Source of the DNA: an uncultured Micrococcaceae bacterium | GTDB lineage: Bacteria; Actinomycetota; Actinomycetes; Actinomycetales; Micrococcaceae | Assembly: GCA_947502645.1 (NCBI GenBank) | Contig: CANNAD010000001.1 | Location: forward strand, 620,001-684,000 | Length of the DNA: 64,000 nt | Reading direction: 5' to 3' | Part shown: positions 4,908 to 60,396 of the stretch, piece after piece | Numbering within the stretch: position 1 is the first letter of the stretch | Layout of the letters: each line of letters begins with the position of its first letter | The notes under the pieces: model-generated | Database searches by the model: none | Told to the model about the DNA's origin: nothing | Seen by the model: the letters and a program-made list of their open reading frames with translations, nothing else | Translations under genes and position numbers: made by a program

Positions 4908-6067
4908 TCACCTCTTTGGGAGAGCTGGCGACTTTCAGGGGCGGCTCTGCCTTCCCTAGAGACGAACAGGGACAACGAACTGGCGCGATCCCCTTCATGA
5001 AAGTTAGTGACCTCTCACGTGGCACTGGGAAGTGGAAATGCAATGACGCCGCGAATTGGTTGAGTAAGGGCCAAATTGATTCTCTGCGGCCGACAATTGC
5101 ACCCGCTTCCGCGACGGTCTTCGCAAAGATCGGTGAGGGCCTCCGGAGTGAACGTTGTCGGCTGCTAACCGGTCCCACGGCGATTGACAACAACATGATG
5201 GCCGCAATCCCGACCGCTCGTGCTGATGCTGCCTACCTTTACTACCTACTCCATACAGTGGGACTCAGCACCTTTGCCGTCGGGTCTGCGCTTCCATATC
5301 TGAAGCAGAGCACTCTAAATCAGATACGAGTTGAGGTTCCGTCTCTTCTCGATCAACAAGCAATCGCGGAGGTACTGGGCGCGCTCGACGACAAGATCGC
5401 CGCCAACACCAAACTCGCCTCCACTGCTGACGAATGGGTACGCACTGAATACGCTCGAACTGGTTCGGCTTCCGCGGACACAATTCCGATCAGTGAGTTG
5501 GCGACGCACGTACGTCAAACCGTCAACCCGGACCAGGTTGAACCCACCGCCGCGTATGTTGGCCTGGAACATGTCCCGAGGAGATCGATGTGGCTTTCGG
5601 GCTACGGCACAGCCGAATCAGTAACCAGTGCCAAAGTTCAATTCGAGGCAGGCGACATCTTGTTCGGAAAGCTACGCCCCTACTTCCACAAGGTCGTTGC
5701 TGCGCCCCGCGACGGAATCTGTTCTACGGATATCTTGGTTCTGCGCCCTAAACACACTGAGCTATCTGGTTTCGTCTTGGCAACCTTGTCGAGCGACGAA
5801 GTGGTGCGAGAAGCGACCGCGAGCAGCGAAGGAACCAGAATGCCGCGAGCTAGCTGGAAGGACGTCTCTGCCATAGAGGTCCCGTGGCCCGGCCGCGCCG
5901 AGACTGTCGCATTTAGTGAACATGTCGAGATTTTGAGAAGTACTATCGAAACGCTGCTGAGAGAAAGCCGCACCCTAGCCGCAACACGTGACGTTCTCCT
6001 CCCCCAGCTCATGTCAGGCAAACTGCAGGTAAAGGATGCGGAGGCTGCCGTTGAATGTCTCGTGTGA
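4904..6067 (+). CDS. hsdS: Type I restriction-modification system specificity subunit HsdS
   Basis: 387 residues, with the expected two target-recognition domains (about 1-150 and 190-340). They are separated by the conserved helical spacer (LDDKIAANTKLASTADEWV, about 161-179) and followed by a second helix ending LLPQLMSGKL. It determines the bipartite DNA target of the complex. The two recognition domains have lower GC and different codon use from hsdM, as is usual for exchangeable specificity domains. The GTG start overlaps the hsdM stop. Confidence 0.95.
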   Translation: MITSLGELATFRGGSAFPRDEQGQRTGAIPFMKVSDLSRGTGKWKCNDAANWLSKGQIDSLRPTIAPASATVFAKIGEGLRSERCRLLTGPTAIDNNMMAAIPTARADAAYLYYLLHTVGLSTFAVGSALPYLKQSTLNQIRVEVPSLLDQQAIAEVLGALDDKIAANTKLASTADEWVRTEYARTGSASADTIPISELATHVRQTVNPDQVEPTAAYVGLEHVPRRSMWLSGYGTAESVTSAKVQFEAGDILFGKLRPYFHKVVAAPRDGICSTDILVLRPKHTELSGFVLATLSSDEVVREATASSEGTRMPRASWKDVSAIEVPWPGRAETVAFSEHVEILRSTIETLLRESRTLAATRDVLLPQLMSGKLQVKDAEAAVECLV

Positions 6068-6114
6068 CCGGGAGGGAAGCAAACTGATTCAGACCAAGGG
6101 GAGAGAGGCCAACC

Positions 6115-7140
6115 GTGCCATATGAGCTGGAGAACCGACTGGTAGTTGGAGTGGCTTCAAGCGCCCTCTTCGACCTCGAAGAATCAGACGCGTTCTTTCG
6201 AAAGCACGGAGAGGAGGCTTACCGGAAGTACCAGGACGAACGGATAGACAATCGACTCCACCCGGGTGTTGCGTTCCCGTTCATCCAGCGACTCCTCAGC
6301 CTGAATGACCTCCGTGACGTCAGCAACCCCCTAGTCGAAGTCATCGTCCTTTCCAAAAACGACGCTTCTACTGGACTACGCGTTCTTCGTTCGGTCAAGG
6401 GCCACAACCTTGCAATATCGCGAGCGATTTTCACTCAGGGACGAGCCCCGTACGAATACATTCAAGCTCTCAGCATGTCGTTGTTCTTGTCGGGCAACCG
6501 AGCGGATGTGGACTCTGCGATCAAGTTGGGCTACCCGGCAGGGCATGTCATGCCTTCCACCGCCGTATACGACCCAGGTGACCCTTCGCTGCGAATCGCG
6601 TTCGATTTCGATGGCGTGCTGGGAGATGACGAATCTGAACGGGTCTTCAAAGAGTCTGGGAACTTGAAGGAATACCTTGCGTACGAAACCACGCATCAAG
6701 ATCGCGCACTGATTCCGGGTCCGCTGAAGAATCTCCTTCAGGATCTTAATCTGATCCAGAAGCTCGAAGCGGACAGGCATCAGCGTGATGAGACCTACGT
6801 CTCTCGGTTGCGCATATCTCTCGTGACTGCCCGAAGTGCGCCAGCACATGAACGGGCAATACGTTCGCTCGCAGCCTGGAATGTGACCGTGAATGACGCA
6901 TTCTTCCTTGGAGGCATCGCAAAATCGAAGGTGCTGGAAGTGATGAGGCCGCACATTTTCTTCGATGATCAAACAACGCACCTAGAGCCGGCGTCCTCGC
7001 ACGTCGCGGGTGTTCACATTCCATATGGGATCGCAAACCACGCAAAAGGCGTCCCGGTGACCGCGCCCGAGGACGCAGCACCGACAACACAGCTCGTCGA
7101 CGGACAAGAGCCAACTAAAGACGCGGTAATCGAACGGTGA
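6115..7140 (+). CDS. 5'-nucleotidase (cytosolic NT5C1-like family) inside the type I locus
   Basis: 341 residues. The N-terminus (LVVGVASSALFDLEESDAF) and the segment HPGVAFPFIQRLLSLN are typical of the cytosolic 5'-nucleotidase family (Pfam 5-nucleotidase). A HAD-like aspartate motif DFDGVLGDDE is at about 164-173, and FFDDQ at about 282-286 may supply the metal-binding acid. The family dephosphorylates nucleoside monophosphates. Start GTG, with AGAGAGG about 7 nt upstream. The 47-nt gap after hsdS on the same strand suggests the same operon. Placement within a restriction locus suggests a role in nucleotide-based defence or in recycling cleaved DNA, which is inference. Confidence 0.85.
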   Translation: MPYELENRLVVGVASSALFDLEESDAFFRKHGEEAYRKYQDERIDNRLHPGVAFPFIQRLLSLNDLRDVSNPLVEVIVLSKNDASTGLRVLRSVKGHNLAISRAIFTQGRAPYEYIQALSMSLFLSGNRADVDSAIKLGYPAGHVMPSTAVYDPGDPSLRIAFDFDGVLGDDESERVFKESGNLKEYLAYETTHQDRALIPGPLKNLLQDLNLIQKLEADRHQRDETYVSRLRISLVTARSAPAHERAIRSLAAWNVTVNDAFFLGGIAKSKVLEVMRPHIFFDDQTTHLEPASSHVAGVHIPYGIANHAKGVPVTAPEDAAPTTQLVDGQEPTKDAVIER

Positions 7141-18611: not shown

Positions 18612-18621
18612 TTTTGTAAAG
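18612..18621 (+). promoter_or_regulatory. TTTTGTAAAG motif upstream of the bacteriocin precursor gene
   Basis: The 10-mer TTTTGTAAAG lies 43-52 nt before the precursor ATG. The same 10-mer occurs on the minus strand at 25612-25621, upstream of the XRE-TPR regulator gene, and in both places a TTGA follows within 5-7 nt. Shared AT-rich words in two GC-rich promoters suggest a common operator, plausibly for that regulator. Confidence 0.45.
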
Positions 18622-18663: not shown

Positions 18664-18945
18664 ATGGAAGCTAGCTTCACTCGCACCTCCAGCAAGCGCA
18701 GCCTCGTGGCCGTCGGCGCCGTCAGCGCCTTCGGTCTTGCTGTCGCGTCCGTCAGCGTCATGTACATTGCGGGCATGTTCGGCCTGTCGACCGCCTTTGC
18801 CAGCCAAATCGTCAACGCCGTTGCTGTCGGAGGCTGGGCTCTGGCCGTAGTGATGGGACTGCTCTCGGGCGGTATCGCCGCTGCCGTCATCGCGACAGCC
18901 CGCTGGGCTATCACCCAGTGGGGCAAGGCCGCGGCCGTAGCCTAG
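18664..18945 (+). CDS. Putative circular (AS-48-like) bacteriocin precursor
   Basis: 93 residues. A leader-like segment (about 1-34, with R7, K11, R12 and a hydrophobic stretch) precedes a very hydrophobic core. From M38 the core reads MFGLSTAFASQIVNAVAVGG then W58, which aligns without gaps with the start of mature enterocin AS-48 (EFGIPAAVAGTVLNVVEAGG then W). The rest is helical and glycine/alanine-rich, ending WGKAAAVA. A mature part from about residue 35 would be about 59 residues with charge +2 and no acidic residues. In the known family, leader removal and N-to-C joining give a membrane-permeabilising ring. GAGGAG lies 6-7 nt before the ATG. The downstream operon matches the usual gene set. 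The exact cleavage site is unknown. Confidence 0.8.
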   Translation: MEASFTRTSSKRSLVAVGAVSAFGLAVASVSVMYIAGMFGLSTAFASQIVNAVAVGGWALAVVMGLLSGGIAAAVIATARWAITQWGKAAAVA

Positions 18946-18958
18946 GTCCCAACACTCA

Positions 18959-19537
18959 ATGAGCACAGAGTTACTCCTCAGGGACAGGCAGCGAGCAGCG
19001 CTGGTTGTTGCGTTCGGCCTGTCCCTGGGCCTCTTGATTTCAGGTTTCCTGCTCGGCTACCACGCCGTGTCGAATTCACCGGCTCCCACTGCAGACCCTG
19101 CCTCCGCGGCAGCCACTCCCTTCGGTGAGGCCTTCATCGGCGTGCTTGCCCGCAATCTACCAGCCCTCTGTCTGGCCTTTTCCGGTGCCGCTACCGCAGG
19201 GCTTTCCACGTTGGTCTCCTGGCCGTTGGTCGCCATCTATATCGGCAGCACCTGGCATCTGAGCGAGAAAGCAATTGGACGGGAACAAGTCCTTGCGGGG
19301 ACGGGACTCTACGCCCCGGTGGAATTCCTCGCGTTGACCATTGCCGCCGCAGCGGGCCTGCTGCCCGTGCTGACCGCCATCTGGGCGGCCCTTTCGAGCC
19401 GCGCAACGGTCACCCCCTTCCGGGCCTACCTTGCAGCCTTTCCGACTGCGCTCAAACTTTTAGCAATCGCCGTCGTCGTCCTGTTGGCGGCTGCCGGCGT
19501 CGAGGCCGCCGTCATGGCGGGTAAGGGAACACGATGA
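18959..19537 (+). CDS. SpoIIM/DUF95-like membrane protein of the bacteriocin operon
   Basis: 192 residues with about four or five hydrophobic segments (about 14-34, 65-95, 112-140, 158-188). The arrangement NLPALCLAFSGAATAGLSTL, a short polar loop, then LYAPVEFLALTIAAAAGL resembles SpoIIM/DUF95 proteins, which often contain a P-x-E motif at this point. A DUF95 protein is one of the constant members of circular bacteriocin clusters, where it is thought to assist maturation or export. It starts 13 nt after the precursor stop and overlaps the next gene by four bases (ATGA), so all are co-transcribed. Confidence 0.75.
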   Translation: MSTELLLRDRQRAALVVAFGLSLGLLISGFLLGYHAVSNSPAPTADPASAAATPFGEAFIGVLARNLPALCLAFSGAATAGLSTLVSWPLVAIYIGSTWHLSEKAIGREQVLAGTGLYAPVEFLALTIAAAAGLLPVLTAIWAALSSRATVTPFRAYLAAFPTALKLLAIAVVVLLAAAGVEAAVMAGKGTR

Positions 19538-20100
19538 CTGCTGCACTTACTGCTGATGCAGGTACCGAAACGGACAAGCCCCCGAAGAGCACTTCGGCCA
19601 TCGTCTGGATGACAGCATTCGTGATGCTGCTTGCGCTGCTGCTGCTGCGCTCCAGTCAGCTCTACGACGAAGTAGCCAGTCAGGTCCTGATGACCGAAGA
19701 AGCACAAGCTCTCGACGACCCGGCTATGGGCACCTTGGCCACAAGCATCGGATTTTACCTTGGGCTCACCATCAGCATGCTCGCCACGGCACTGTACTTC
19801 TCATTGGCCTCGGTCATCGAGACTCGAATGTTCCCGCGCCTGGTGCGCTCAGCCGGCCGTGTGCGTCTGGGGTTCCTTGGAGCAACTGCGGTAACGGTAA
19901 CCGTACCGGTGCAGCTCGTGTCCTGGCTGTTGGCTCAGGAATCTCCGAAGGACCAGTGGCTTTTCTACGCTTTCATACTGGCAGCCGGGCTGACAATCCC
20001 CCTCCTTTTCCGCAAGCAATGGCAGAGTCTAGGGAGTAGAAAAGTTCGGATCATCTTTGGCACTTCACTGCTGATCGCATCAGTGTCGGTCCTGCTCTAA
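19534..20100 (+). CDS. Membrane protein of the bacteriocin operon, unknown function
   Basis: 188 residues with four or five predicted helices (about 22-40, 66-92, 110-135, 142-160, 168-188). There is a cytosolic N-terminus with several acidic residues and a polar loop (SQLYDEVASQVLMTEEAQAL) that may be extracellular. I recognise no family. It is translationally coupled to the SpoIIM-like gene (ATGA overlap). By position and topology it could be a maturation, export or self-immunity component. Confidence 0.7.
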   Translation: MTAALTADAGTETDKPPKSTSAIVWMTAFVMLLALLLLRSSQLYDEVASQVLMTEEAQALDDPAMGTLATSIGFYLGLTISMLATALYFSLASVIETRMFPRLVRSAGRVRLGFLGATAVTVTVPVQLVSWLLAQESPKDQWLFYAFILAAGLTIPLLFRKQWQSLGSRKVRIIFGTSLLIASVSVLL

Positions 20101-20125: not shown

Positions 20126-20494
20126 ATGAATCAGACCTACTCTGCGATACGGCGGATAGCGCCGCCCATCCTGATGGTGCTGCAGCTGCTGTGCGGGATC
20201 ATGATTCTGCTCTCCGGTGACGCTGCGATCCCGTGGCTGGCGTATGGCGCCGTTGGGTTGGGCCTGGTGGTGATGGCGGCTGCATGGTCCATCAAGGCCT
20301 CCAAGCCCCGGGTCGACGGCATCCTGTTCCTCGTATCGGCACTGGCCGGCGGTTTGCTCCTGGGCAGTTGGCAAGCCGGGTTCCCTGCGACCCTGCCCGT
20401 CTGGCTCTGGTGCATTGCCTCCGTACTGTTGGCCACGGTGGGCATTGTGCTCGACGCCGACAGCAAACAGTCCCGGTCCCAGAACAGGTTCTGA
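20126..20494 (+). CDS. Small four-helix membrane protein, candidate immunity or accessory protein
   Basis: 122 residues with four hydrophobic helices (about 14-30, 36-56, 65-85, 90-108) and a polar tail (DADSKQSRSQNRF). A perfect AGGAGG lies 7 nt before the ATG. The stop overlaps the next start (TGATG). Circular bacteriocin operons usually include a small hydrophobic immunity protein, and this is a reasonable candidate, though no sequence motif proves it. Confidence 0.7.
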   Translation: MNQTYSAIRRIAPPILMVLQLLCGIMILLSGDAAIPWLAYGAVGLGLVVMAAAWSIKASKPRVDGILFLVSALAGGLLLGSWQAGFPATLPVWLWCIASVLLATVGIVLDADSKQSRSQNRF

Positions 20495-22026
20495 TGTCCA
20501 CGCTCAAGGCGATGTCCGGCTTCTCCGCGGTGGAACAGTTGACTCACATGGGCTGGTCATTGTCCGTCCGCACATACTGGGCATTGGCCGCGGGAGCCGC
20601 GGGGGTGACAGTGTTGGCGGCATTCGCGGCAGGCCTGCTGCTCTTCCGCTGGTTTCAATACATCGTCCCGGCCGCACTCGCCAGCGTGGCCCCATCGACG
20701 CAGGTGCTATCCGCCGCAGCAGGGCTGGGATGCTGGATCATCGTGGCGTATCTGGGAGCCACCTCCCTGATCAGGGAGGCGTTGACTCGCCGTCGCCTGC
20801 TGATCCGGTACAACCCCAACGCTGCGTTGTTGCGGGCACTCGATATCCCGCTGAGTGATGTGTTTCTGGTCAAGTGCCTGCCCAGAACGCTTTTCAGCGG
20901 GATCCTGGCCCTGGCTATCTCCGCATCTTTCATCGTCGCCTGGCATAAGCATCTGGTCCATCTCCCGGAATTACAAGCAGCCCTTTTAGTGTTGCCGCTG
21001 TGCACCACGGCAGCCGTTATCTGGTCCAGTTCCCACTTCGCACGAACCGATCTGCGGCACTCCCGCGGCCAGCTCGCGGCGATGCTGGCAGTTGCCGCTG
21101 CGGCGCTCGGTGCCAGCTGGTTGCTGGGAGAGTGGACCATGGTGCTGCTCGGCGCCACCCCGCAGGTCTTCGACCCGCTCTTGCTGGGCTCTGTCATAGG
21201 GTGGGTCACTCTTGCACTGCTGGTCCCGGCCGCAGTGGTTCTGTTGTACCTGACCGCAAGGAACGTGCGGTATCTGCAGCGGGACTCTGCCCGTCCTGCT
21301 CCAGCACCCAACCTCCGGCCGGGCAGAAAGCTGGCTGCAGCGATGTTCGGAGCTGGTCCGGCGTGGTGGCTGTTGTACACCCTGTTCCGCGGGATCGCCC
21401 GCCATGGAGCCGCTGGCCTGGTGACCCGCATCGCCGGGATCTGCACCATCATCGCAGCAGCAGTTATAGGTTTCAGCGCCGGAGGCCCGGGCTTCGGGTT
21501 CCTGCCGGACAACGTTGCCGTGACCAGACTCGCCGCGATCGCGGTGTTCCTGCTCTCCATGACCGTCTATGAAGTGACAGACCGCGCTATCGGCCCATCC
21601 GGGTGGATGCCACAATTCCGCTGGTGCTTCGAGGCCGGAGTGAACCAGAAACACATCGCATCCATAGCCGTCGTTGCCACCGCTGCAGTAACTGCGGCCG
21701 CTGTTGTACCCCTGGCGCTCGGCGCACTCGCACTCACCGGTGGCGGCGCAGCACTGATCCTCATTCCCATGGCCGCAGCTGCAGCGGGCGCAACCGGGGC
21801 CTCACTCACATCGAGCCCCCGGAGGCAGGCCGACGGCACGGTGGAGTCTTCCCTGGTGACAGCCATAGTCTCCGTACTACTCTCGTTGCCCGTCCTCGCG
21901 CTGCTGGTACTGCCCGGCAGCTTCAATTCACTATTCGCCGTTGCCTACACCACCCTGTTGATCGGAGTTGGAATCCTATGCCTCAGCCGTCGCGTCAAAT
22001 ACCTGCCCTCGAGTTCCTGGACGTAA
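20494..22026 (+). CDS. Large polytopic membrane protein of the bacteriocin operon (maturation/export candidate)
   Basis: 510 residues from the ATG at 20494, which overlaps the preceding stop; the frame is open further upstream, but that would bury it in the previous gene. About twelve membrane helices are visible, with few charged loops (one is LLRALDIPLSDVFLVKCLPR). Size and topology match the large multi-spanning protein found in every described circular bacteriocin cluster, whose loss abolishes production in studied cases. Alternatively it is an ABC-2-like permease served by the ATPases downstream. No peptidase motif is evident. Confidence 0.75.
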   Translation: MSTLKAMSGFSAVEQLTHMGWSLSVRTYWALAAGAAGVTVLAAFAAGLLLFRWFQYIVPAALASVAPSTQVLSAAAGLGCWIIVAYLGATSLIREALTRRRLLIRYNPNAALLRALDIPLSDVFLVKCLPRTLFSGILALAISASFIVAWHKHLVHLPELQAALLVLPLCTTAAVIWSSSHFARTDLRHSRGQLAAMLAVAAAALGASWLLGEWTMVLLGATPQVFDPLLLGSVIGWVTLALLVPAAVVLLYLTARNVRYLQRDSARPAPAPNLRPGRKLAAAMFGAGPAWWLLYTLFRGIARHGAAGLVTRIAGICTIIAAAVIGFSAGGPGFGFLPDNVAVTRLAAIAVFLLSMTVYEVTDRAIGPSGWMPQFRWCFEAGVNQKHIASIAVVATAAVTAAAVVPLALGALALTGGGAALILIPMAAAAAGATGASLTSSPRRQADGTVESSLVTAIVSVLLSLPVLALLVLPGSFNSLFAVAYTTLLIGVGILCLSRRVKYLPSSSWT

Positions 22027-22640
22027 CAGCCGGCTACCGCGAAGGCTCTCCTGTGCTGCACAACACCAGCCTGGCTCTCACCGGGCCCGGCTTGTTCCAC
22101 CTCGCGGGCCGAAACGGGACCGGTAAATCAACCTTCACGGAACTAGCGAGCGGTTATCTGAGACCCTGGCAAGGCCAAGTCATGGTGGCCGGTGTTCCCG
22201 CAGACGATCCGGCATCCCGATCTACCCGCCGAATATGCCGCTCCGATGTTGCATTATTCGGTCATATGACAGTGCGCGACCACCTGGCGTTTACGTGTAT
22301 GGCACGCTCGGAAAGCCTTGACGATCTCCTGCCCCGGGCCGAGCGGTTGGGCCTGGAACCCTACCTGGATCTGAATGCCGGGATGCTTTCAACCGGCAAC
22401 GCACGCAAGCTCTGGTACCTGGTGTGCACCACCGGCGCGTTCACGCTTGCCATCCTGGACGAGCCGTTCAACGGCGTCGATCAGGAAAGCAGCGATGCCA
22501 TGTGTGACGAGCTCTCCTGCATTGCAGCCTCCGGAACAGTGGTTCTGGTGGCGCACACACTGCCGGAGGCACTAACCGTCAGCCGAACGCTGCGCATGGA
22601 AGAACTGTCCGGCGTGAACATCCTGGGCAGTCTGCAATGA
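21978..22640 (+). CDS. ABC transporter ATP-binding protein, degenerate signature
   Basis: 220 residues. Walker A is GRNGTGKST, Walker B and catalytic Glu are FTLAILDEPFNG, and a switch histidine is seen in VLVAHT. The signature reads MLSTGNARKL instead of LSGGQ, and the Q-loop glutamine is not evident, so it may work only in a pair. The ATG lies inside the last 49 nt of the preceding gene with GGAG upstream, showing tight coupling. It most likely energises the large membrane protein or a neighbouring permease for export or immunity. Confidence 0.85.
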   Translation: MPQPSRQIPALEFLDVTAGYREGSPVLHNTSLALTGPGLFHLAGRNGTGKSTFTELASGYLRPWQGQVMVAGVPADDPASRSTRRICRSDVALFGHMTVRDHLAFTCMARSESLDDLLPRAERLGLEPYLDLNAGMLSTGNARKLWYLVCTTGAFTLAILDEPFNGVDQESSDAMCDELSCIAASGTVVLVAHTLPEALTVSRTLRMEELSGVNILGSLQ

Positions 22641-23554
22641 TCGTCACGGAAGGCCTGGGCAAAACTATTGACGGCCGCAAAATTGTTGATGATGTGTCCT
22701 TCGAACTGCATCCTGGCGAGGTGGTGGGACTGGTTGGGCCCAATGGTGCCGGCAAGAGCACCACCATGAAGCTGATGGTCAATGCAGTCCGCGGTCAGGG
22801 CCGCACTCTTTTCGACGGCGTGGCTTACGCGGACATGATCAGCCCGTGGCAGCAGGTGGGCGTCCTCCTTGACCCGAACATGTTCTACCCTGGCCGCTCT
22901 GCCCGAAAGCATCTGCTGATGCTGGCCCGGGGAAGCGGACTTCCGGATAGCTCGGTGGAGCGGACGTTGGCCCTCACTGGTTTGTCCGGACGCCGCAGCA
23001 ACACCCCGGCTTCGTACTCACTGGGAATGCGGCAGCGCTTGGGTTTGTCCTCGGCACTGCTGGGTGATCCATCCGTGCTGGTCCTCGACGAACCAGCAAA
23101 CGGGCTTGATGTGGAGGGCGTGACCTGGCTCCGCCAGCTGCTACGGACCTTTGCCGAGGACGGCCGCACTGTGTTGCTCTCTTCCCATCTGCTGGCGGAA
23201 TTGGAGCAGGTCGCTGACCGGGTGCTTTTCATGGCCGGCGGCCGGCTGGTCGCCGATACCAGGCTTTCGGATCTGGCCGGCAGTTCCGACCGAACCTATT
23301 CTGTCGTCCGGTGCGACCGTCCGGAGGCCCTGGCGACCGCGTTGCGCCTCGAGGGTGCCACCGTCGAAGATCAGGGACCCCAGCAATTGTCGGTCCGCGG
23401 CATGCCACTGAAACGCATAGGGGAAATAGCCTCCGCCGAAACCTGCACCTTGTACGAACTTTCCGCGCACACCATGTCGTTGGAAGAGCATTTCGTGGAC
23501 CTGGTCGGCCCCGGCCACCGTTCAGCAACAACTGCCCTGGAGGAGATCTTGTGA
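22637..23554 (+). CDS. ABC transporter ATP-binding protein
   Basis: 305 residues with a complete nucleotide-binding domain: Walker A GPNGAGKST, signature YSLGMRQRLG, Walker B VLVLDEPANGLD, and H-loop SSHLL. The C-terminal extension of about 90 residues is typical of antibiotic and bacteriocin exporters of the CcmA/BcrA type. It starts on the four-base overlap ATGA with the previous ATPase and overlaps the permease gene that follows, so the two should pair. Role: probable export of, or protection against, the cyclic peptide. Confidence 0.9.
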   Translation: MIVTEGLGKTIDGRKIVDDVSFELHPGEVVGLVGPNGAGKSTTMKLMVNAVRGQGRTLFDGVAYADMISPWQQVGVLLDPNMFYPGRSARKHLLMLARGSGLPDSSVERTLALTGLSGRRSNTPASYSLGMRQRLGLSSALLGDPSVLVLDEPANGLDVEGVTWLRQLLRTFAEDGRTVLLSSHLLAELEQVADRVLFMAGGRLVADTRLSDLAGSSDRTYSVVRCDRPEALATALRLEGATVEDQGPQQLSVRGMPLKRIGEIASAETCTLYELSAHTMSLEEHFVDLVGPGHRSATTALEEIL

Positions 23555-24339
23555 AGTCCGCGCTTGCCTACGAATGGGTCCGATTCAGCAGCACCCGTTC
23601 GGTCTGGATCCTCGGAGCCCTGGCCATAGCGGGTTCAGCAGCTTTTGCATGGGCCATGTCAGCCATGATGGCGGCGACAACGCAACTGGGCTCCCCAGCG
23701 GACATCGCCGACGCCGCCACGATTGCAGCCACCCGCGCCCCATTGGCCCCGGCCGTCGCCGGCGTCCTGGGGGTTATGGCATTCGGTCAGGAAACGCGGC
23801 ACCGCACACTGCTCCTGGCAACTCTGGTGGTCCCCCGCCGGCAGGTACTCTACGGAGCCAAAGCTCTGGTGACAGCAGCGGCCGCGGCCATTCTCTGTGC
23901 GCTCTGCCTCGGAGCGGCCCTGGCTGCCGCCTACGCGTCACTGGCAGGCACAGGAACTGCTGCGGCCCGGCCGGATGCCTTGGCGCTGACCGGTTACCTG
24001 GGCCAGACCTTGGGCTGGGCGCTGTTGGGACTTGGCATCGGCGCAGTGTTGCCCCAGTTAGCTGGCATTCTGACACTATTGCTGGGATCGGCCCTCGTGG
24101 AACCCCTGATAGCCAGATTTGCGGGCGGGATGAGCATTCCGGGAGTAGGCTCGGCGGCCGATCTGCTACCTTTTGCCGCCGGCGCGTCACTGGTGACCGC
24201 CAACGAATCGGAGTTGTCCGTGAGTATCCTCGCCGAAAGCGGGGAGCTGGCACCGGCTCTGGGCGTCGCCGTCTTTTCCGTGTATGTTGCGGTGGCCATG
24301 GCGGCGGGGCTGGCCCGTTTCCGGCAGCAAGACCTTTAG
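23551..24339 (+). CDS. ABC-2 type transporter permease
   Basis: 262 residues from the GTG at 23551 that overlaps the ATPase stop; AGGAG lies 9 nt upstream. It has six predicted helices, a cytosolic N-terminus (KSALAYEWVRFSSTRSVW) and the loop FGQETRHRTLLLATLVVPRR, a hallmark of ABC-2 permeases of the BcrB type. It would form the membrane part for the adjacent ATPase. The last gene of the operon, it overlaps the convergent regulator gene by four bases. Confidence 0.88.
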   Translation: MKSALAYEWVRFSSTRSVWILGALAIAGSAAFAWAMSAMMAATTQLGSPADIADAATIAATRAPLAPAVAGVLGVMAFGQETRHRTLLLATLVVPRRQVLYGAKALVTAAAAAILCALCLGAALAAAYASLAGTGTAAARPDALALTGYLGQTLGWALLGLGIGAVLPQLAGILTLLLGSALVEPLIARFAGGMSIPGVGSAADLLPFAAGASLVTANESELSVSILAESGELAPALGVAVFSVYVAVAMAAGLARFRQQDL

Positions 24340-25565
24340 CTGCTACCCTCACCCAACTCGAGATGTTTGGTGAGAGCTTCCGACGCGCGATCGGAAAGCC
24401 CTGCCTCGGAAAATAACTTTGCCGCCGTCAGGTAGCACGTGCCCGCTTGAGTCGGGTTCCCTGAAGCCTGCTGGGCTTCACCGCGCATCAGGGCGACGTC
24501 GCCTGCAACGTTGAGCGCCAGCCCGTCCCGTCCGCCCAGGTCATCCAGCAGGGGGAGGACCTGCTCTGCTTCGCCTCGGACCGTGTGCCAGCGGGCGCGG
24601 ATCAGCATCAGGTCGGTCCGGATCTCCTGGGAGTCCAACAGCTTGCCAACCATTTCAGCGCGTGCCATGAGGTTGCCGGTTGCCTCGTCAGCGATTCCGT
24701 TCCGTAGCCGGATAGAGGCCGTGGCCCGGATGAACCGCGCCCACAACTCCAGGTCCACCGCCGGGTCAAGGAGCTGTTCCGACAACTGGTGCAGTTCCAC
24801 CCCAGTGGCTGCCTCCCCCTGGGCGAAGGCCACATTGCCGATCGTCCACGCTATTTGCCCGCGCATCTGGGCTGACAGCTCATCCATGGCCACGACGCCG
24901 CGCAACTGCTGTGCATACCGCCAGGCCACGTTGGTGTCCCCATGCTCGGCCAGCGCTGCAATACGCGCCATCTGGGCTTCCAGAGCATCCATAGACGTTT
25001 CCGCCAGCGACTCAGCGAGCTTCACCGCGGCCTCTGCCAACTGGACGGCATCGGCCAGGTCGCCACTGACCCTACTGAGTACCGAAAGGAAGGTTTTCGA
25101 TTTGACGGCCAACTGATCCGACTGGACAGCCATTGCATGGCCGTCCAGTTCCATCACCTGGTCGCGTGCTTTTTCATAGTCACCCTGGTGGTAGGACATG
25201 TCGGCTGCGAGGAAGGACATGTTCCACCAGACGGAGGGATTGGAATGGGCCGCGGCCTCGGCTGCATGCCGGGCCGCCGTATGCGCCAAAGGAAAATCGC
25301 GTTCCTGCCATGCTTGATAAGCGTCCAGGCAGAGGCCGCTGAGGGCCGCTTCGTCGTCGGCGCTGCTCAGCCACGATTCAAGCACGGCGACGTCCAGTCC
25401 CAGCACAGGCGCCAGGTCTTTCAGGACAGAGCGCGTGGGGGCGCGCCGACCGTTCTCGATCAGCGACACATAGCTCGCAGAGTACTTCGTGCCCCCCAAC
25501 TCCGTTTGCGTCAGGCCTAGCCGCTGCCGCGCTTCTCGCAGCTGGGCGCCGAATCGAGCTTCCAT
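24336..25565 (-). CDS. XRE-family regulator with C-terminal TPR-like repeats (RRNPP-like)
   Basis: 409 residues from the ATG at 25565, which has AGAAGGA 4-5 nt upstream; the open frame reaches back to a TTG at 25607. Residues about 4-60 form an XRE helix-turn-helix (LREARQRLGLTQTELGG, YVSLIENGRRAPTRSVL). The remaining 340 residues are a series of alpha-helical pairs rich in Ala, Leu and Glu, as in TPR-type peptide-sensing regulators (PlcR, Rgg, NprR). The gene faces the bacteriocin operon tail to tail, and a small ORF diverges from it. It probably controls that operon, perhaps in response to a peptide. Activator or repressor is not decided by the sequence. Confidence 0.85.
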   Translation of the reverse strand: MEARFGAQLREARQRLGLTQTELGGTKYSASYVSLIENGRRAPTRSVLKDLAPVLGLDVAVLESWLSSADDEAALSGLCLDAYQAWQERDFPLAHTAARHAAEAAAHSNPSVWWNMSFLAADMSYHQGDYEKARDQVMELDGHAMAVQSDQLAVKSKTFLSVLSRVSGDLADAVQLAEAAVKLAESLAETSMDALEAQMARIAALAEHGDTNVAWRYAQQLRGVVAMDELSAQMRGQIAWTIGNVAFAQGEAATGVELHQLSEQLLDPAVDLELWARFIRATASIRLRNGIADEATGNLMARAEMVGKLLDSQEIRTDLMLIRARWHTVRGEAEQVLPLLDDLGGRDGLALNVAGDVALMRGEAQQASGNPTQAGTCYLTAAKLFSEAGLSDRASEALTKHLELGEGSS

Positions 25566-25611
25566 ATGTTCCTTCTCCCACCCCCAGGAATTGACTAGAT
25601 CTGTCAAATGT

Positions 25612-25621
25612 CTTTACAAAA
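25612..25621 (-). promoter_or_regulatory. TTTTGTAAAG motif upstream of the XRE-TPR regulator
   Basis: Minus-strand copy of the 10-mer found at 18612-18621. Reading towards the regulator gene, it is followed 5 nt later by TTGACA, a consensus -35 hexamer, so a protein bound here could control the regulator's own promoter as well as the divergent small ORF. Confidence 0.45.
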
Positions 25622-25689
25622 TTCCACAAGTGCGATTGTATCGTGTCTGTTCACATATCAGTCTCTACACACTACTCAAGGGGCCCGTA

Positions 25690-25848
25690 ATGCTCTCATC
25701 ACTCGCACTCATCGTTTTCATCGGATTCTGCCCGACAGCCAACGAACTCCCGGCCACTGATACCCCAACCCTCACTATTTGCACCGACCACCCTGGCAAC
25801 ATCTTCGATCTGAACCAGAACGACTGGCCCATTTCATACCCCCGATAA
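25690..25848 (+). CDS. Small ORF, candidate signalling peptide precursor
   Basis: 52 residues. AAGGGG lies 6 nt before the ATG. The N-terminus (LSSLALIVFIGFC) is hydrophobic, and the rest is polar with two cysteines (C14, C31) and the tail DLNQNDWPISYPR. It is transcribed away from the XRE-TPR regulator, the arrangement of Rgg/SHP and related peptide-regulator pairs. Such precursors are 20-60 residues long, and the C-terminal part gives the signal. Against this, no positive charge precedes the hydrophobic stretch from this ATG; a GTG further upstream would add arginines. It may also be non-coding. Confidence 0.45.
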   Translation: MLSSLALIVFIGFCPTANELPATDTPTLTICTDHPGNIFDLNQNDWPISYPR

Positions 25849-58747: not shown

Positions 58748-60396
58748 ACGTCATAGAAGGTAGGTGTGGACACGGTGGGCAGGGCACGGAGCCCCTCAAC
58801 ACTTGAGCGGTACAGGAAGTGATTCTGCTGGTCATAGAGCGGCAGAACGTAGTAGCCCTCGAGGATCAGTTTCTGCGCATCCTCATAGAGAGCAGCACGC
58901 TGATCTGGGTCCGTTTCCTGGCTTGCCTGCGTCAGCAACTTGTCCAGTTCGGCATTGTCTACCTGACTGAGGTTCGCGAAGTAACCGCTGGGAGCAGGAA
59001 CAATGCCGTCCGAGTGGTAGAGAATGCGCAACACATCCGGGCCAACCTTGGTGTAGGGGGCACTGACCAGGTCATAGTTGTTCTCCGCCAGAGCTCCGTA
59101 CCAACTGGACAGATCCAGGAGGTTGAGGTCGATCTTGAAGCCTACTTCCTTGGCCGTTGCCTGGATCTGCTCGAACAGGGACACCTCAGCCGGAATCGAC
59201 TGGTTGGTGCTGACCGGGAATTCAAGGCTCAACTGCTGCCCGTCCTTGACCCGGTAGCCCTTGGAATCGCGCTTGTCCCAGCCAGCCTCATCGAGAAGTC
59301 TGTTGGCTTCTTCCGGGTCATAAGTGAACAGCTCAGGATCCGCGTAGCCCAGCTCTTCGACGCTGGACAGTGCGGAATGGGACCGCTCAGCGGCGTCGAA
59401 GAAGAGGCTGGAAATGCCGGCGTCCACGTTGGCCGAGTGAATGAACGCTTCACGGACCAGCGGATCATTGAAGGGTGCCTTGCTGGAATTGAGCTCAATC
59501 CGGTTCGACGCTCCGGGGCGCGGGGCGTCCAGGTGCTCAATGTCCTCATTCTTCTCGGCAGAGGCAATGGTGTCTGGCTGCGCATTGTCGATGACGTCAA
59601 CCTCGCCGGACTGCAGCGCAGCGTAGCGCGACGCGGAATCCGGGATGAACCGCCACGTGATCGACTCCAGGTAGGCCGGGCCCTCGTGAGCGGCGTCGGC
59701 CGGCGGGGAGTTGTAGTCCTCGTTGCGAACCAGGGTGATCGAGTTCTGCTTGACCCACTCGTCCACGATGAACGGCCCGGTACCGACCGGCGCTTCACAG
59801 TTCTCTTCCTTCGGCCGTTCCAGCGCCGCGGGAGATTCGATAGCCAGCCAGGGCTGTGAGAGTGACTCGAGCAGCGCACTGTCAGGCTGGCTCAGATTGA
59901 GCCGAATCGTGTCTTCGCTGACAATTTCAGTGCTCTTGACCTTCGCCAGAGCCAGGAAGCCAGTGGACGACGCCGTCTCCGGGTCCTTGAGGTGCTCAAT
60001 GTTCGCCTTGACCGCCTCCGCGTTAAGCGGGGTGCCGTCGGTGAACTTCACGTCGTCGCGCACCGTGATCGTCCAGCTCAGACCGTCCTCGGCCTCTTCC
60101 CAGGAAGTGGCGAGCCAGGGGATGATCTCGCCGTCGCTGTTGAGTGAGACCAGCGGTTCGAGGTACTGCGTGGAGACTAGTGCCTGAGGATAGTTTCCAC
60201 CCACATGCGGATCGAGACACGTGGGTTCAGCATCCCCCGACGCGTATACGAGTTCGCCGCCAGACACCGGCGTCTGACCGGATTGGCCATCTTGGGGCTC
60301 TGCCGAACTGCAGCCAGCGAGCAACAGCGCGGCAACGGAAACCGCGCCTACCGCCGTCGAGAACCGTGCAGAGGAAGACTTGAAGTGAGTGGACAT
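58732..60396 (-). CDS. Lipoprotein substrate-binding protein of the SBP5 family
   Basis: 554 residues from the ATG at 60396; the frame extends upstream with a second in-frame ATG. The signal peptide ends in the lipobox LLLAGCSS, so the protein is anchored at the outer face. The family pattern EPTCLDPHVGGNYPQALVST and DVKFTDGTPLNAEAVKANIE is that of peptide, nickel or opine binding proteins. It is the first gene of the transport operon and supplies the substrate to the DppBC-like permeases. Confidence 0.93.
   Translation of the reverse strand: MSTHFKSSSARFSTAVGAVSVAALLLAGCSSAEPQDGQSGQTPVSGGELVYASGDAEPTCLDPHVGGNYPQALVSTQYLEPLVSLNSDGEIIPWLATSWEEAEDGLSWTITVRDDVKFTDGTPLNAEAVKANIEHLKDPETASSTGFLALAKVKSTEIVSEDTIRLNLSQPDSALLESLSQPWLAIESPAALERPKEENCEAPVGTGPFIVDEWVKQNSITLVRNEDYNSPPADAAHEGPAYLESITWRFIPDSASRYAALQSGEVDVIDNAQPDTIASAEKNEDIEHLDAPRPGASNRIELNSSKAPFNDPLVREAFIHSANVDAGISSLFFDAAERSHSALSSVEELGYADPELFTYDPEEANRLLDEAGWDKRDSKGYRVKDGQQLSLEFPVSTNQSIPAEVSLFEQIQATAKEVGFKIDLNLLDLSSWYGALAENNYDLVSAPYTKVGPDVLRILYHSDGIVPAPSGYFANLSQVDNAELDKLLTQASQETDPDQRAALYEDAQKLILEGYYVLPLYDQQNHFLYRSSVEGLRALPTVSTPTFYDVWLNR

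Follow-up and report, generated by a model that had tools for sequence, protein, structure and literature searches.

The window, a stretch of 64,000 nucleotides from a 2.67 Mb genome, contains a gene for an HTH+TPR regulator and a divergent 52-codon ORF next to a circular-bacteriocin operon. We consider it likely that this pair belongs to an RRNPP-like peptide signalling family of Micrococcaceae-type actinobacteria and a neighbouring family, and works by the whole mechanism proposed below. At the gene level, the pair is conserved, the core of the small product is under selection in relatives, the regulator has an HTH+TPR architecture, and a promoter word is shared. Judged from the sequences, the widespread gene-level system is real and represents RRNPP-type signalling in a variant form and in a different phylum; the window pair very probably belongs to it. 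Because the pairing of regulator and small gene recurs across the family, bacteria of the Arthrobacter family probably perceive one another through short peptides, a mode described to date from Firmicutes only.

Quorum sensing with short linear peptides and cytoplasmic TPR receptors is regarded as a trait of Firmicutes. A large-scale survey of RRNPP systems analysed Firmicutes and virus genomes and described actinobacterial signals as small molecules (PMC10075063), a paper on RRNPPA evolution leaves actinobacteria unmentioned (PMC9765709), and the accessible part of a 2016 review on actinobacterial quorum sensing describes no such system (PMC4748050). Open-access papers, preprints excluded, provided no precedent for RRNPP in Actinomycetota or Streptomyces, nor for the GNWPDPM motif. 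The original prediction held that a peptide-quorum system guarding a bacteriocin operon in an actinobacterium would be new; this stands for RRNPP-type signalling in the open-access literature, while an AS-48-like circular bacteriocin cluster has already been reported in Arthrobacter sp. APC 3897 (PMC10456417) and the guarding role is suggested by the promoter comparison given below.

The regulator and its divergent small ORF

The regulator, a candidate for both peptide receptor and transcription factor, is encoded at 24336..25565 on the minus strand (409 aa, from ATG 25565 to the stop at 24336), with an alternative TTG start at 25607 also in the open frame. Residues 4–64 match HTH_31 (E 5.7e-14), the XRE-type N-terminal HTH characteristic of RRNPP transcription factors, and weak matches to TPR models are located C-terminal to it. 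The AlphaFold2 model, obtained with 37 related sequences as input (mean pLDDT 86), predicts a helical HTH followed by a long series of paired helices. PlcR-PapR, NprR, and Rap were among the top matches of this model in Foldseek and VIA-align comparisons, so that the model and its fold matches indicate a C-terminal TPR-type helical repeat domain as in RRNPP receptors; eukaryotic TPR proteins and MalT scored equal or better in the fold searches. The match of a family sequence profile to PlcR was confined to positions 4–57, corresponding to the HTH. The modelled architecture of the regulator is thus RRNPP-like, with the sequence relation to PlcR seen in the HTH alone. The XRE regulator with an N-terminal HTH and TPR-like helices, assigned in the original prediction to the PlcR/Rgg/NprR type, is borne out by the domain matches and the helical model, the fold being compatible with PlcR, NprR, and Rap.

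Relatives of the regulator across the family are 38%–40% identical to it, and the closest one reached 40% at best even when 395 genomes of the family and 395 of the class were searched. With the window regulator as a single query, genome_contigs gave no match, and an alignment was required instead. In the regulator tree it joins the L041 clade (support 98/91) on a long branch for which the tool advises caution. Phage and viral contigs contained no relative of the regulator. On plasmids, there was no nucleotide-level relative of the locus, and the regulator matched only weakly HTH proteins of Streptomyces, judged from the annotation table alone, and of Dermacoccus, where the ORFs inspected include no obvious peptide.

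The divergent ORF (25690..25848, plus strand; ATG 25690, stop 25846–25848) encodes a candidate signal-peptide precursor of 52 aa, MLSSLALIVFIGFCPTANELPATDTPTLTICTDHPGNIFDLNQNDWPISYPR. A Shine-Dalgarno-like AAGGGG is located 6 nt upstream of the ATG (25678..25683, plus strand). The codons at 25819..25845 (plus strand) specify NDWPISYPR at the C-terminus; this stretch is predicted to be the mature pheromone region and contains a single copy of a W-P core like those in GNWPDPM, GDWPLGG, and other peptides beside related regulators. The N-terminus is hydrophobic, with no basic residue ahead of the hydrophobic stretch, an atypical leader. The original description of the ORF, its ribosome-binding site, and its hydrophobic N-terminus was accurate, and so was the weakness it conceded, the missing positive charge. 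The only HTH member with a precursor in the nearest clade, L041, likewise lacks a basic leader; its peptide is IGDWPLGG, which NDWPIS of the window resembles, so that DWP(L/I)(G/S) is common to the two.

The intergenic DNA contains the palindrome TTGACTAGATCTGTCAA (25591..25607, without strand), a candidate operator that includes the -35-like TTGACT of the small ORF; the -10-like hexamer TTTACA (25613..25618, plus strand) was recognized by comparing intergenic sequences by eye. The arrangement TTGAC-N17/18-TTTAC is common to the related intergenic regions and was read as the peptide promoter. An element TTTTGTAAAG is located at 25612..25621 on the minus strand, and its family form TTGTAAA[AG] is present in 94 of 160 related intergenic regions. 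A regulon search based on the palindrome was unproductive, returning the local site, which is the sole intergenic copy in the genome, and two copies within genes.

W-P precursors beside related regulators

Proteins related to the regulator at E 1e-20 or better are encoded in 138 of 295 sampled family genomes. The DNA upstream of related regulators contains divergent small ORFs; most of them encode a Sec-type leader, and a short core that ends in W-P is repeated in their products. Such an ORF with a [GNDSE]-x-W-P core occupies the same place as the window ORF at 122 of 160 related regulators, and the divergent precursor is present at all 80 named Arthrobacter, Pseudarthrobacter, and Paenarthrobacter loci of genome_contigs. 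The latter precursors have one to five copies of GNWPDP(M/A/V), one of which is nearly always the very C-terminus, and are mostly about 125–145 nt from the regulator start. The core varies with the receptor clade, and other genera have GNWPN, GNWPD(S/G/A), GDWPLGG, GIWPNS, GEWPH, GDWPH, VWIWPD, and GNWPDRF, the last in up to eight copies per precursor. Within the family, 15 genera have precursors with convincing cores, and those of a second family of the same order contain VGGSWPT repeats.

The precursors differ in design. Long ones with 5–8 tandem GNWP repeats, mostly TPAVGNWPDRF, resemble yeast alpha-factor (L085, L089, L090), while some are just 21 residues long; very short leaderless examples, such as MKILQAPNPASAGTRVGDWPD and MSLFKTPFHPAPKPCVGDWPD, are located beside related receptors (L096, L102, L225). 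In the other family of the order, VGGSWPT repeats or SDTWPA are present at the precursor C-terminus (L215, L216, L217). At three Arthrobacter-type loci (L033, L040, L070) the pair adjoins purC/purD-like genes, and two of them (L033, L040) additionally have two large ABC-transporter-like genes upstream of the pair; these three neighbourhoods contain no bacteriocin gene and no modifying or immunity gene beside the precursor. No Pfam or NCBIfam family matched the precursors, a HAT match on their tandem repeats was dismissed as spurious, and a search for plasmid-borne precursors gave weak hits only.

The small ORF is missing from two regulator subclades, most of one g25 subclade and the MFS-linked g31 subclade. 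No convincing W-P precursor was observed near L075, L081, L083, L084, L091–L095, L097–L099, and most g25 loci; regulators of this kind may be orphans or may use different signals.

In 76 close precursor pairs, pN/pS was 0.20 overall. Inside the core, pN was 0.0031 and pS 0.384, compared with 0.0785 and 0.247 outside it; the relatives have thus preserved the amino-acid sequence of the core, and their W-P repeats are under extreme purifying selection. These figures describe the precursors of relatives and not the window ORF, whose own relatives are too distant (regulators at most 40% identical). Of the checks proposed with the original prediction, selection on the small ORFs of relatives came out in its favour, with the core of their precursors nearly unchanged, and conservation next to orthologous regulators was confirmed, apart from the two subclades mentioned. 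An adjacent small secreted propeptide conserved with its receptor, as expected of RRNPP systems, is thus present (122/160 and 80/80 loci; pN/pS about 0.2).

A second receptor class is TPR-only, with no HTH and about 345 residues, and has the same kind of divergent peptide. The genome studied here encodes such a paralogue on C2 (L111, G000:C2:591695-604657, regulator at 5965–6999), whose precursor contains GNWPNVGNWPN; the counterpart in a congener (L110) has GSWPNGVGSWPN. The same gltX-like gene adjoins the TPR-only paralogue in both species. From its gene content, the L111/L110 pair is a putative second signalling channel. Both receptor classes, with the different cores GNWPDPM and GWWPN, are found in one Arthrobacter-group genome (G062).

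The bacteriocin operon and alternative readings

The putative target operon starts with a gene for a 93-aa circular bacteriocin precursor of the AS-48/uberolysin type (18664..18945; PF09221 27.3 bits, cut-off 23.6; TIGR03651 28.7, slightly below the cut-off of 30.7). It is followed by genes for a SpoIIM/DUF95-like membrane protein (18959..19537; PF01944 9e-5, 22.9 bits, under the cut-off of 26.9), three membrane proteins (19534–20100, 20126–20494, and 20497–22026), an ABC ATPase (22637–23554; PF00005), and, as the last gene, an ABC permease (23551–24339; PF12730), all on the plus strand. A PF09221 precursor together with a DUF95-like protein and ABC genes is the composition of uberolysin/circularin-type operons. 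The 3' end of the regulator gene overlaps the permease stop at 24336–24339, tail to tail, so that regulator and operon are neighbours but not divergent.

The bacteriocin promoter contains TTTTGTAAAG at 18612..18621 (plus strand), 42 nt upstream of the start codon. The genome has three copies of this element, of which one is located in the bacteriocin promoter and another between the peptide and regulator genes. The third (L212, G000:C1:195701-195710) was observed in the 5' part of an acyltransferase frame, the true start of which may be downstream. The shorter TTGTAAAR occurs twice in the window, both times in these two promoters, against 0.64 copies expected anywhere in the window, and the composite TTGTAAAR-TTGA, a pattern framed after both sites were seen, only at the same two promoters against 0.05 expected. 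When the promoter pair was shuffled, a common 10-mer appeared in 133 of 5000 trials and TTGTAAAR in the bacteriocin promoter in 132 of 5000, corresponding to p about 0.03. At 17 other bacteriocin loci of the family, the sequence covered (at most about 15 kb) contained no such regulator, and TTGTAAA was absent upstream. Two of the 17 have the full operon: L257 and L264 (G725 and G755) contain complete orthologous circular-bacteriocin operons, including the three membrane proteins in the same order, with the bacteriocin 72%–73% identical and the regulator absent. Viral contigs contained no bacteriocin relative. This distribution suggests that the regulator and the cis element were brought together at this locus and that the regulator controls the bacteriocin operon, a control to which we give about even odds. 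Of the claim that the pair guards the operon, the adjacency and the common element TTTTGTAAAG stand, while the link is suggestive and is not conserved at the 17 loci.

Alternatively, the pair could be a genuine peptide-receptor system that controls only itself or distant genes, its adjacency to the operon being accidental. This is possible, although we doubt it. It would agree with the absence of the regulator from the 17 related bacteriocin loci, with its position at purC/purD in three Arthrobacter-type loci with no bacteriocin neighbour, and with its convergent orientation to the operon; on the other hand, in the window TTTTGTAAAG and TTGTAAAR-TTGA are confined to these two promoters, and TTGTAAA is found in none of the 17 unlinked bacteriocin promoters.

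It is unlikely that the family system is real but that the precursor gene in the window has decayed or fallen out of use, leaving its regulator an orphan. The single core copy, the leader without basic residues, the long regulator branch, and the orphan regulators known in two subclades would agree with such decay, but the ORF is intact, follows a Shine-Dalgarno-like site at the conserved distance from the regulator, and encodes a hydrophobic N-terminus and a core close to the C-terminal end, and the nearest peptide-bearing clade member, L041, also has no basic leader. Since secreted repeats can be toxins or adhesins, the precursors might instead be antimicrobial or structural peptides whose production is controlled by a TPR regulator sensing something else. 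A core of just 4–7 residues, variable copy numbers and linkers, precursors of only 21 residues, a core that changes with the receptor clade, and the lack of a modifying or immunity gene beside the precursor at L033, L040, and L070 make this quite improbable.

The strict criteria required a divergent ATG at a distance of 60–200 nt, preceded by a Shine-Dalgarno-like site, and a product with both a hydrophobic N-terminus and a [GNDSE]xWP core. They select 102 of 160 related loci and 9 of 25,358 background segments in relatives, and in the window the small ORF and none of the 6,062 remaining segments; since the criteria were defined after the family was seen, these figures quantify and do not predict. 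The 160 loci, being related, do not count as independent cases. Under a loose rule, a divergent xWP ORF is found at 122 of 160 regulators, while elsewhere around them it occurs in 10 of 160 cases upstream on the same strand and in 13–18 of 160 downstream. That an ordinary XRE regulator stands beside a meaningless ORF by chance was rejected as highly improbable on both controls: although the loose rule finds an xWP ORF in 44 of 539 random segments (about 8%), the strict counts and the conservation and selection in relatives oppose it.

Proposed mechanism and comparison with known systems

In the favoured reading, a peptide signalling pair of RRNPP type, the small ORF would be translated into a precursor that is exported, by analogy with RRNPP systems, and NDWPISYPR or a fragment of it would be released from the C-terminus outside the cell. 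The peptide could then be re-imported, again as in RRNPP systems, by an oligopeptide ABC importer. The genome encodes six SBP_bac_5 oligopeptide-binding proteins; one of them, a possible importer component, is located in the window at 59017..60129 on the minus strand (G000:C1:679017-680129). Inside the cell, the peptide would bind the TPR groove of the regulator and alter its contact with DNA at the shared intergenic region, making the peptide self-regulating. DNA binding at the bacteriocin promoter would probably be altered as well, with the sign of regulation presumably such that cells would produce the circular bacteriocin at high density or with kin near.

More broadly, actinobacteria may own a large family of W-P pheromones with intracellular receptors, comprising 1–8 tandem copies, receptors with and without HTH, and several channels per genome, one of them recruited here for a quorum-sensed circular bacteriocin; we see an equal chance of this being right or wrong. 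Arthrobacter and its relatives are common in soil. If true, a widespread Arthrobacter counterpart would permit direct tests with cheap synthetic peptides, provide new orthogonal signalling parts, and raise the question of whether its kinship with RRNPP is by descent or convergence.

Rgg-SHP and ComR-XIP of Streptococcus also combine an HTH+TPR receptor with a short precursor encoded next to it and in some cases control bacteriocin-type genes, but the peptide motif, the phylum, and the precursor design are different here. PlcR-PapR and NprR-NprX, the RRNPP systems of the Bacillus cereus group, are alike in the HTH+TPR regulator, the small adjoining secreted precursor, and the fold; their signal is the C-terminal end of the precursor, as is predicted here from where the core lies and how well it is conserved. 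Unlike them, the pair described here has an actinobacterial host, a divergent precursor, a W-P core that is often tandem in the family, and a TPR part with no detectable sequence relation to theirs. With AS-48/uberolysin-type operons, the window shares the bacteriocin, the DUF95-like protein, and the ABC genes, whereas a linked peptide-receptor pair is found only in the window and at none of the 17 other family bacteriocin loci. Rap-Phr of Bacillus has a TPR-only receptor with an adjoining peptide gene, like the second class here, and some Phr precursors likewise contain the pheromone in tandem copies (PMC11343458), but the peptide sequences here are unrelated and the gene order is divergent. 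The HTH+TPR and TPR-only classes thereby parallel the PlcR and Rap branches of RRNPP.
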